In this document: in pieces, positions 13,217-16,202 of the stretch | Position numbering within the stretch: position 1 is the first letter of the stretch | Layout: each line of letters opens with the position of its first letter | Source of the DNA: Sphingomonas sp. | GTDB lineage: Bacteria > Pseudomonadota > Alphaproteobacteria > Sphingomonadales > Sphingomonadaceae | Direction: 5' to 3' | Assembly (NCBI RefSeq): GCF_017745215.1 | Contig: NZ_JAGHZV010000011.1 | Span: forward strand, 62,001-126,000 | Length of the DNA: 64,000 nucleotides | The notes under the pieces: generated by a model | What the model was told of the DNA's origin: nothing | The model's database searches: none | Seen by the model: only the letters and a program-made list of their open reading frames with translations | Translations under genes and position numbers: made by a program

Positions 13217-13293
13217 GCGCCCGTAGCTCAGCTGGATAGAGCATCAGACTACGAATCTGAGGGTCGGACGTTCGAATCGTTCCGGGCGCGCCA
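13217..13293 (+). tRNA. tRNA-Arg (anticodon ACG)
   Basis: GCGCCCG...CGGGCGC acceptor, anticodon arm TCAGA-CTACGAA-TCTGA, T-loop GTTCGAATC, encoded CCA. Confidence 0.97.
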
Positions 13294-13419
13294 TTTTCCA
13301 AATCGCTGATTCCCTTGCCAGGGGCGCCGTCCGCCGGGCTGTTTCGTGGCGCCGGCGATCGGACTTGCGGCGCCTCCGGGCCGGCAATAGCATCGCCTTC
13401 GCCGAGCAGGAGCCGAGAC

Positions 13420-15219
13420 TTGAGCCGATCCAGGAGCCATCCCCCGCGCCCTGCGCTCAACCTCTCGATCGGCATTACCGGCCATCGTCCGCCCGTCCTC
13501 GACACCGAGGCGGCGGCCGCGGCGGCACCGCGGCTGCTCGAGCTGTTCAAGGCACTGGCGCGCGAGGCGGAGGGGGTGAAGTCGCGATACCCGGAGTTGT
13601 TCGACCCCGCGCCCTTCCGGCCGCGCCTCGTCTCGCCGCTCGCGGAGGGTGCCGACCAGATCGCGGCCGAAGCGGCGATCGAGACGGGTTATGCGCTGCA
13701 GGTGATCCTGCCGCTGCCGCGCGACGATTACCGCACCGACTTCCCCGCCGCCGCCTTCGCCCGGTTCGAATCGCTGATCGAGCGCGCCACCGGCGTGCTC
13801 GAACTGCCCGTGCAGCCGTTGGGGCGGGACGAAGGCTATGCGCTCGCCGGCCGCGCGACGGTGGCGCATTGCGACATCCTCGTCGCGCTTTGGGACGGCG
13901 AGCCGTCGCGCGGACTGGGGGGCACCGCCGACATCGTCGCGCTCGCGCTCCGGCGCGGCATTCCGGTGATCCATGTGCCGATCGACGCGGCGCATCCCGT
14001 CCGCGTGCTGTGGACGAGCTTCGGCGAGTTCATCGACGCCTCGATGATCAGCGCCGTGCCCGCGCGCGAGGTGAGTGCCGCGCTGATCGCCGAAGTGGTG
14101 AACGACGTGCTCGGCCCGCCCGAGGACCCCACCGAAGCCGCGCACCTCGCCGACTATCTCCGCGAGCGCGAACGGCTGTTGCGCCCGCGGCTCGAATATC
14201 CGCTCCTGCTTGCGACCATGGGCGTGAAGCGGATGCGCGCCTCGGCCTTCGCCAGCGCGCGCTATGCCGAAGCGACGCGGCGCGAATGGGCACCGTTCCA
14301 CGCCAGCGTCGGCGGCGGCCGGCATGGGGTCGAGGCGCCGCTGGACGCCGTCGAGCAAGCATTCGGCTGGGCCGACCGGCTCGCCCAGCACTTCGCCCAG
14401 ATCTACCGCTCGGGCCATGTGCTCAACTTCACGCTGGGCGCGCTCGCGGTGTTGATCGCGCTGACCGGGCTGCTCTTCCCCCAGATCAAATTCTGGGGAG
14501 CGGTGCTCGAGGCGTTCGCGATCGGCGGCTTCGTGCTCAACACCTGGGTGGGCACCAAGCGCGGCTGGCACCGGCGCTGGCTCGAATATCGCCAGCTCGC
14601 CGAGCGCATCCGGCCGATGCGCAGCCTCAAGCTTCTCGGCACCGCGGCGCCGCCGCCGGGCCATGGCGGCGTCGGCCAGCCGCAGCGCTGGATCGACTGG
14701 TACGCCCGAGCGCAATGGCGTGCGACCGGCTGCCCGGCGGGGCGCATCCTCGACAGCCATGCGCTGGTCGCGGCGATCGTCGCTGAGGAGATCAAGCCGC
14801 AGATGGACTATCACCACAGCAGCGCGCACCAGATGCACCAGCTGGACCACCGGCTCCACACCATCGGCATGGTGCTGTTCTTCCTGTCGATCATCGGCTG
14901 TTTCTCGTCGATCTTCATCAAGCTGCTCGACCATCATTTCGCCGAGCTGCACGGGGTGTGGTTCGTGGCGTTCGCGGCGGGACTGCCGGCGCTGGGCGCG
15001 GCCATCTTCGGCATCCGCATGCAGGGCGACTTCGGGGCGAGCGCCGAACGGTCCGAGATCACCGCGCACAATCTCGCACGGATCGAAGCGGCGATCGAAG
15101 ATTCCGCGATCGGCCTCAGGCGCCAGACCGATCTCGCCGAGGCCGCGGCGGCGACGATGCTCTCGGAACTCGGCGACTGGCACCAGGCCTATGCCCAGCG
15201 GCGGCTGGAGCTGCCTTAG
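13420..15219 (+). CDS. SLOG-like Rossmann domain fused to two SLATT-like 2TM modules
   Basis: SIGITGHRPP, PRLVSPLAEGADQIAAEAAI, VAHCDILVALWDGEPSRGLGGTADIVALA; then TM pair FTLGALAVLIALTGLLF / VLEAFAIGGFVLNTWV plus WLEYRQLAERIRPM, and second TM pair MVLFFLSIIGCFSSIFI / FVAFAAGLPALGAAIFGI. TTG start with AGGAG SD suggested at 13420; ATG ORF begins at 13315. Confidence 0.75.
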   Translation: MSRSRSHPPRPALNLSIGITGHRPPVLDTEAAAAAAPRLLELFKALAREAEGVKSRYPELFDPAPFRPRLVSPLAEGADQIAAEAAIETGYALQVILPLPRDDYRTDFPAAAFARFESLIERATGVLELPVQPLGRDEGYALAGRATVAHCDILVALWDGEPSRGLGGTADIVALALRRGIPVIHVPIDAAHPVRVLWTSFGEFIDASMISAVPAREVSAALIAEVVNDVLGPPEDPTEAAHLADYLRERERLLRPRLEYPLLLATMGVKRMRASAFASARYAEATRREWAPFHASVGGGRHGVEAPLDAVEQAFGWADRLAQHFAQIYRSGHVLNFTLGALAVLIALTGLLFPQIKFWGAVLEAFAIGGFVLNTWVGTKRGWHRRWLEYRQLAERIRPMRSLKLLGTAAPPPGHGGVGQPQRWIDWYARAQWRATGCPAGRILDSHALVAAIVAEEIKPQMDYHHSSAHQMHQLDHRLHTIGMVLFFLSIIGCFSSIFIKLLDHHFAELHGVWFVAFAAGLPALGAAIFGIRMQGDFGASAERSEITAHNLARIEAAIEDSAIGLRRQTDLAEAAAATMLSELGDWHQAYAQRRLELP

Positions 15220-16202
15220 CGCGTCCCCGCCACGGCGAGCAGCGCGAAGGTGGCGAGCCAGTGGCTGCCCATATAGTCGGTCTCGAGGTGCGGCAGGCTG
15301 GCGGCGAGGTGACGCTTGGCGGCGTCGAGCGCAAGCGAGGGATCGGGGAGCGCGTCGGCGAGGCTGCGCCAGCACCAGGCGCGGCTGAGGTTCAGTCCGT
15401 CGAGGTGGGCGATCTTGCCGTCGGTGCGGTCCGAGACGGCCGCGGGCGCGAAGAGCGTCGCGGGCTCGCCCTGCGCGAGGCGGGGCAGGAAGCCCGTGAA
15501 CCAGAGCTCGAAGGCGGGGCCCGGCAATAGCCGGCGCATCAGCAGCGCCTCGCACAGCACGGGGGAGAGGAACTCGTCGCCGCCTGGCTCCCAGGCCTGG
15601 CAATCCTCGTCCGCCGCGAACCAGTCGAGCGCGCGCCGAGTGATCAGCGCGGCGAGCGGCGGGTCGTGGTCGAGCGCCCATTCGCGCGCGAGCAGCAGCG
15701 CGAAGGCGGTGTTGAAGTGCGTGCCGGTGCGGATCGGATAGGTCTGCCTGGGCAGGAAGCCATGGAACCGGTCGGCGAAGGCGCGGGCGAGCGGCTCGAG
15801 CGTGGCGCCCCAGCCGGCGTCATGGCGGCAGAGCTCGGCGTGGAGCATCAGCAGCCACGCCCAGCCATAGGGGCGCTCGAACCCGCCCGACGAGGGCCGC
15901 GCGAGATAGGCGAGCTCGCCGGCCGCCTTCTCGGGCGTGAGCAGGCGATCGGCGCGGGCGCGGATCTCGGGCGCCTCGGGCAGGTCGGGGAAGGCGCGGA
16001 GCAGCCGCATCAGCTGCCACCAGCCGTGGACGCAGCTGTGCCAGTCGAAGCTGCCGTGGAAGATCGGATGCAGCTCGATCGGTGTGCGGACATCCTCGGG
16101 GCCGGTCATCACATGGTCGAGCTTATATGGCCATTGCTGCTCGAGATGGCCGAGGGTGAGCCGGGCGAAGCGGCTGGCGAGGTCAGGGGTGAGGCCGGTC
16201 AT
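15216..16202 (-). CDS. DUF2891 family protein
   Basis: HPIFHGSFDWHSCVHGWWQLMRLLR, RPYGWAWLLMLHAEL, GTHFNTAFALLLAREWA, DYMGSHWLATFALLA. Confidence 0.88.
   Translation of the reverse strand: MTGLTPDLASRFARLTLGHLEQQWPYKLDHVMTGPEDVRTPIELHPIFHGSFDWHSCVHGWWQLMRLLRAFPDLPEAPEIRARADRLLTPEKAAGELAYLARPSSGGFERPYGWAWLLMLHAELCRHDAGWGATLEPLARAFADRFHGFLPRQTYPIRTGTHFNTAFALLLAREWALDHDPPLAALITRRALDWFAADEDCQAWEPGGDEFLSPVLCEALLMRRLLPGPAFELWFTGFLPRLAQGEPATLFAPAAVSDRTDGKIAHLDGLNLSRAWCWRSLADALPDPSLALDAAKRHLAASLPHLETDYMGSHWLATFALLAVAGTR

Follow-up and report, generated by a model that had tools for sequence, protein, structure and literature searches.

An intact slog-slatt gene in Sphingomonas sp. and its possible role as membrane effector in a TIR-coupled, Thoeris-like system

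The slog-slatt locus

The window, i.e. the whole stretch of 64,000 nt of Sphingomonas sp. DNA that was analyzed, contains an intact open reading frame, here termed slog-slatt, which is found in one copy in the window genome. The GC contents at its three codon positions (72/50/89%) are as expected for a genuine gene. TTG13420 is preferred as the start over the upstream TTG13315, because it has an AGGAG sequence 7 nt upstream and because close orthologues begin at the equivalent position (VSHPPRP...). An earlier interpretation of the locus made from the letters alone (the sequence-only reading) gave the reading frame, strand and coordinates correctly, from the TTG to the stop codon at 15219. The features of the locus are listed in Table 1.

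Table 1. Features in and next to slog-slatt (nt positions in the window).
Feature	Position	Strand	Basis
tRNA-Arg(acg)	13217-13293	+	neighbor; 126 bp from tRNA end to slog-slatt start
Ribosome-binding site AGGAG	13408-13412	+	sequence read; 7 nt 5′ of TTG start
slog-slatt gene	13420-15219	+	599 aa, TTG start; ORF plus homologues
SLOG domain (DprA/LOG/YpsA-type Rossmann), residues 16-231	13465-14112	+	AlphaFold2, Foldseek
TGHR motif, loop after strand 1	13477-13488	+	at least 90% conserved in alignment A2
LAEGAD motif, loop after strand 2	13639-13656	+	G77 and D79 invariant in alignment A2
WDG...GGT, strand end and start of next helix; predicted nucleotide pocket	13891-13926	+	G167 and G168 invariant; model secondary structure
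First transmembrane hairpin, SLATT/DUF4231, residues 309-381	14344-14562	+	NCBIfam, Pfam, AlphaFold2
E364 codon; invariant acid within helix 354-381 (second helix, first hairpin)	14509-14511	+	31 sequences
WLEYRQLAERIR helix after first hairpin; R391 and E395 invariant	14566-14610	+	alignment, AlphaFold2
Second transmembrane hairpin (SLATT-like in layout only), residues 446-536	14755-15027	+	Pfam sub-threshold, AlphaFold2, hydropathy

The tRNA-Arg gene is present upstream, at close to the 130 bp given by the sequence-only reading. At the other end, a minus-strand gene (positions 15216–16202) that converges on slog-slatt, and that we take to be DUF2891-like, overlaps the final 4 bases of slog-slatt. 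A genomic island at tRNA-Arg, which the sequence-only reading had raised in noting that tRNA genes are common integration sites, was considered and rejected. A search of the window for a duplicated tRNA-Arg 3′ end, with up to three mismatches allowed, finds only the tRNA itself; few homologues lie near any tRNA, and those tRNAs differ. In relatives tRNA-Arg and the DUF2891-like gene are far apart, e.g. about 60 kb in G247, and the arrangement in the window is therefore a local juxtaposition.

The N-terminal sensor domain

An AlphaFold2 model of the full protein, built from 31 homologues, has a pLDDT of 92.9 and a pTM of 0.91, and the sensor domain modeled alone has a pLDDT of 92.7. The model shows an alpha/beta domain at residues 16–231, hairpins at 309–352/354–381 and 446–503/505–536, and a helix at 383–397. 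When the sensor is compared with solved structures by Foldseek, the neighbors are YpsA (E-value = 2.6e-6), DprA and ShosA (about 1e-4 to 6e-4) and TM1055 (6e-4), and LOG-like and Moco-carrier proteins are also among them. Lower down are the SLOG domain of BcThsA, solved with 3′cADPR (probability 0.98, E-value = 0.03), and TRPM2 (probability 0.6–0.7; for 6pur, probability 0.60 and E-value = 0.045). The SLOG fold of the N-terminal domain is thus shown computationally, and the DprA/LOG-like Rossmann pattern that the sequence-only reading saw there is borne out by both the model and the fold comparison. In structure, ThsA is a more distant neighbor of the sensor than YpsA and DprA are, and the ligand of the sensor may therefore differ from that of ThsA.

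The fold is found by structure comparison alone. The window protein has no SLOG match in Pfam or NCBIfam, and a search of solved structures by sequence gives no significant match; among relatives, Pfam matches two to DNA_processg_A and two to YAcAr. The motifs that the sequence-only reading had quoted are found in the protein and are conserved across homologues. In the alignment and the model TGHR, LAxGAD, WDG and GGT sit in strand-end loops, where a Rossmann fold normally has its nucleotide pocket.

The C-terminal membrane hairpins

The first two-helix transmembrane (2TM) unit scores 47.5 bits against NCBIfam SLATT_1 (NF033634) and 24.8 bits against Pfam DUF4231 (PF14015), above the respective cut-offs of 41 and 24.7. 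The second unit is a clear helical hairpin with hydropathy peaks at residues 477–505 and 510–534, and it scores 17.9 bits against Pfam SLATT_1 (PF18181), below the cut-off of 26.3. The description "tandem SLATT" in the sequence-only reading is therefore correct for the first unit, whereas the second is SLATT-like in topology only. No homology between the two units is detectable by hhalign (probability 1.4%), thus a recent duplication of the hairpins is unsupported.

E364, R391, E395, P523 and W587 are invariant among homologues. T375 is conserved at 90% or more and is located 11 residues past E364, which places the two on roughly the same helix face. This helix, the second in the first hairpin, is thus inferred to carry a pore-lining face. 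Mean column identity is 43% in the membrane region compared with 36% in the sensor.

Distribution of the family

Relatives were located by whole-genome search; "order" and "genus" refer here to the kinship groups assigned by the search tool. Family matches are present in 68 of 301 genomes of the order, 23 of 151 of the genus and 13 of 399 in a sample of the phylum. No relative is encoded in the phage records searched, and plasmid records contain partial, distant relatives only. The sequence-only reading would have been refuted by homologues that are core genes with no association with defense; instead, the distribution is patchy and the family has conflict genes as neighbors.

The window sequence falls together with three TIR-linked orthologues in the phylogenetic tree, with an SH-aLRT of 99, and copies that lack a TIR neighbor are dispersed among those that have one. 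The TIR label is no more clustered on the phylogeny than in shuffles, and the tree is thus compatible with more than one number of independent gains and losses.

One kind of transposase-like gene (DDE-type, IS6-like by eye) is found near SLOG-SLATT in four genomes of the genus (L087 7047–7763, L088 11130–11846, L091 6242–6958 and L093 15997–16713), a hint of mobility.

Linkage to TIR genes

TIR genes were counted with Pfam TIR_2 in 41 genomes of the order, with 5 kb as the limit for linkage and the linkage flags entered by hand from the search outputs. A TIR gene is located within this distance in 29 of the 41 and is not found nearby in the other 12; 0.69 are expected from each genome's own TIR number if genes are placed at random, so that linked genomes are about 40 times as many as chance would give. 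Counted by genus, 11 of 16 genera are TIR-linked (0.62 expected). Another 16 full-length homologues come from the genus of the window, and 13 of them have a linked TIR gene. Eight of these genomes (G333, G308, G387, G353, G388, G408, G426 and G430) have no TIR_2 match other than the linked one.

Families of TIR-TPR genes recur beside the slog-slatt relatives. Genes in these loci were called by a simple rule of open reading frame and GC3, and the borders are approximate. In L035, L040, L043, L049 and L083 the TIR and SLOG-SLATT genes are spaced as in an operon, at −16 to 27 bp; other pairs are divergent and 42–265 bp apart. A simple pattern search finds the Glu of the WVxxE motif in 42 of the 48 TIR genes. 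Linked TIRs of cluster 1 exceed the cut-off of Pfam ThsB_TIR, the PADLOC ThsB models match linked TIRs weakly or not at all, and the NCBIfam model of type III ThcB4 gives 35 bits with one linked TIR (cut-off 220). From this last match, well short of its cut-off, the system may overlap with a type already named.

Outside of the order, G464 and G642 have TIR-TPR neighbors and G793 a weak TIR neighbor. In G534, from another class of the phylum, nSTAND and SIR2-TIR are directly beside the SLOG-SLATT gene (L117 2373–8518). No TIR is nearby in G438, G492, G694, G577 and G458. A survey of neighborhoods for CD-NTases had been suggested, but none was seen among the family-scanned neighbors and it is the TIR gene that recurs. 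Linkage so far above chance makes a self-contained effector, as proposed by the sequence-only reading, unlikely for the family. It suggests that a partner enzyme probably makes the signal to which the SLOG sensor responds.

The window copy

A TIR_2 search of the contig that carries the window copy gives no match. In each of the three closest orthologues (55–57% identity) a divergent TIR-TPR gene is located 81–121 bp away, and a PEP-CTERM-type gene is carried as well. A search of the window genome for this type of TIR-TPR also gives no match, an empty answer that by itself proves little. The window genome does have five other TIR genes, of a different subgroup, and these might act in trans. Four are TIR-TPR genes on contig C24, in about 8 kb (L098 7834–15300; three in tandem and one convergent), and are possible partners in trans; the fifth is on C34.

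The window copy has retained its frame and all of the residues that are invariant in the family, which argues against decay. The simplest reading of these sequences is that the partner was lost or that the effector relocated.

Proposed function and comparison with known systems

In 2015 Burroughs et al. reportedly defined SLOG and SLATT computationally as a ligand sensor and a predicted pore-forming effector in nucleotide-centered conflict systems. SLOG, SLATT and TIR are all established parts of such systems, and the analysis supports the view of the sequence-only reading that a SLOG sensor is joined here to a SLATT-type membrane effector from such a system. The interpretation that we favor, with somewhat better than even confidence, is that the product of slog-slatt serves as membrane effector in a conflict system that is TIR-coupled and Thoeris-like, and that the window copy is intact but orphaned.

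In relatives TIR-TPR would sense infection through its TPR region, as modeled on Thoeris, and convert NAD+ to an ADP-ribose-type signal (PMC11204291; PMC12948488; PMC12578639). The SLOG domain would bind this putative ligand, and the two hairpins would assemble or open a pore. The inner membrane would then be depolarized or permeabilized, and the infected cell would halt growth or die, by analogy with Thoeris and with the effector role predicted for SLATT (PMC7159879; PMC9503650). The SLOG domain of type I Thoeris senses cADPR isomers (PMC11204291), and in phages TIR genes are neighbors of SLATT (PMC9503650). In this scheme slog-slatt would have an antiphage role.

The protein shares a SLOG-type sensor and a SLATT-type 2TM effector with the SLATT/SLOG conflict systems (PF14015, PF18181 and NF033634), for which TIR-SLATT neighborhoods have been noted previously (PMC7159879; PMC9503650). 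It differs in that one chain holds the sensor, the effector and a second membrane hairpin. Type I Thoeris (ThsB TIR with ThsA SIR2-SLOG) likewise has a TIR gene and a SLOG effector, and the ThsA SLOG is among the fold neighbors. However, the TIR of the relatives has a long TPR region, the effector is a membrane hairpin pair and not a SIR2 NADase (the window protein has no SIR2 match in Pfam), and no TIR gene (ThsB in type I) adjoins the window copy, unlike the TIR-linked genomes of the order. Type II Thoeris (ThsB TIR with TM-macro ThsA) has the same logic of a TIR signal that acts on a membrane effector (PMC11204291; PMC12948488). Here the sensor is SLOG and not macro, with no macro match in Pfam, and four TM helices are predicted compared with two. 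We class slog-slatt as a SLOG-SLATT protein that probably acts in the manner of a Thoeris effector but falls outside of types I and II. The N-terminal ADPR-binding region of TRPM2 is also a SLOG-like cytosolic domain on a membrane channel, with a weak fold match, but the membrane part is unrelated by any test run and the likeness is an analogy only.

It is possible, although we hold this only tentatively, that TIR-TPR and the SLOG-4TM protein, often with a small K+-channel-like or an exported PEP-CTERM/trypsin-like protein, form an undescribed Thoeris-like immune type. A TIR-made nucleotide would there act directly through SLOG to gate a membrane pore, as a bacterial counterpart of ADPR-gated TRPM channels. 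The window copy would then be an orphan effector that responds to the other TIR enzymes of its genome, or that has turned into a stand-alone sensor. No description of a one-chain SLOG-4TM protein with recurrent TIR-TPR and K+-channel-like or PEP-CTERM companions was found in the literature searched; Burroughs et al. (2015) may contain part of it.

There is no PADLOC model for the slog-slatt protein, yet about one in five of the genomes sampled from the order carries the family. If the TIR-coupled interpretation is correct, it adds a TIR to SLOG to membrane branch to TIR immunity and gives bacteria an analogue of the ADPR-gated TRPM channels. As a single chain holds both sensor and pore, the long-standing prediction that SLATT forms nucleotide-gated pores would become directly testable, and the window copy would be an example of an effector that persists after loss of the signal enzyme.

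Alternative explanations

The protein could be a regulated ion pathway of normal physiology, in envelope or ionic homeostasis, with TIR providing a housekeeping NAD signal and the K+-channel-like and PEP-CTERM proteins as working partners. An Ion_trans_2 (K+-channel-like) gene is located within about 0.5 kb in seven of 31 genomes (G131, G257, G096, G292, G233, G217 and G158), which have just about two Ion_trans_2 genes each, and the neighborhood of eight loci includes a gene for an exported protein that carries a PEP-CTERM sorting signal (PEPxxWA-CTERM type). This explanation appears unlikely, however, given the patchy distribution, the lack of a fixed position and the nearby transposase-like gene in four loci, and given that the SIR2-TIR, nSTAND and patatin neighbors outside of the order look like conflict systems.

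A self-contained, TIR-independent effector, which opens the membrane when its SLOG domain directly binds a nucleotide of host or phage origin, would make the partnerless window copy the typical state. It would account for the intact window copy with every invariant residue of the family, and for the approximately 30% of homologue loci that have no TIR within 5 kb. It is nevertheless improbable, since TIR linkage is some 40-fold above chance, the three closest orthologues are TIR-linked, and the TIR-less copies are scattered in the tree as expected from repeated loss or relocation.

The catalytic motif of the LOG family is PGGxGTxxE. A catalytic SLOG (a LOG-type phosphoribohydrolase or nucleosidase) that makes or removes a signal, and whose hairpins only anchor it in the membrane, is very improbable, since this motif is absent (the family has GGT with no invariant acid following) and conservation is no lower in the membrane region than in the sensor (43% vs 36%), unlike in a mere anchor, even though LOG-like and Moco-carrier proteins are fold neighbors and some SLOGs of conflict systems are proposed to act on N-glycosidic bonds (PMC7159879; PMC9503650).

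Other genes near SLOG-SLATT loci

Small Ion_trans_2 genes immediately next to SLOG-SLATT genes are located at L042 10757–11275, L041 8730–9182, L044 8326–8793, L047 8570–9106, L038 8260–8709 and L056 8686–9225. PEP-CTERM genes in the TIR-TPR/SLOG-SLATT cluster are at L090 10655–11812, where the gene overlaps the SLOG-SLATT gene by 4 bp, L092 6615–7742 and L080 6108–7154. A surface component of this type is unexpected in a conflict system. Genes for trypsin-like, CRP-like and TPR-S-SLOG-cyclase proteins are near a few SLOG-SLATT loci. These, like the channel-like and PEP-CTERM companions, are leads as to function.

The TPR-S-SLOG-class III cyclase has a similar SLOG region, with a cyclase in place of the membrane hairpins. 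It is found beside a TIR-FHA gene (L062 8079–11031, L069 8029–11040 and L070 8931–11922) and also near SLOG-SLATT in L057 and L058.

Outside of the order, a patatin-like phospholipase gene adjoins SLOG-SLATT in G438 and G694 (L112 5033–6259, with a 4-bp overlap, and L114 3833–5074), and that of G438 matches the PADLOC phospholipase effector models. A large WD40-propeller protein (L120 10654–15663), whose N-terminus is DUF4062-like by eye, adjoins a distant SLOG-SLATT gene. DUF4062 is a TIR-like NADase family with a reported antiphage role (PMC13174449).
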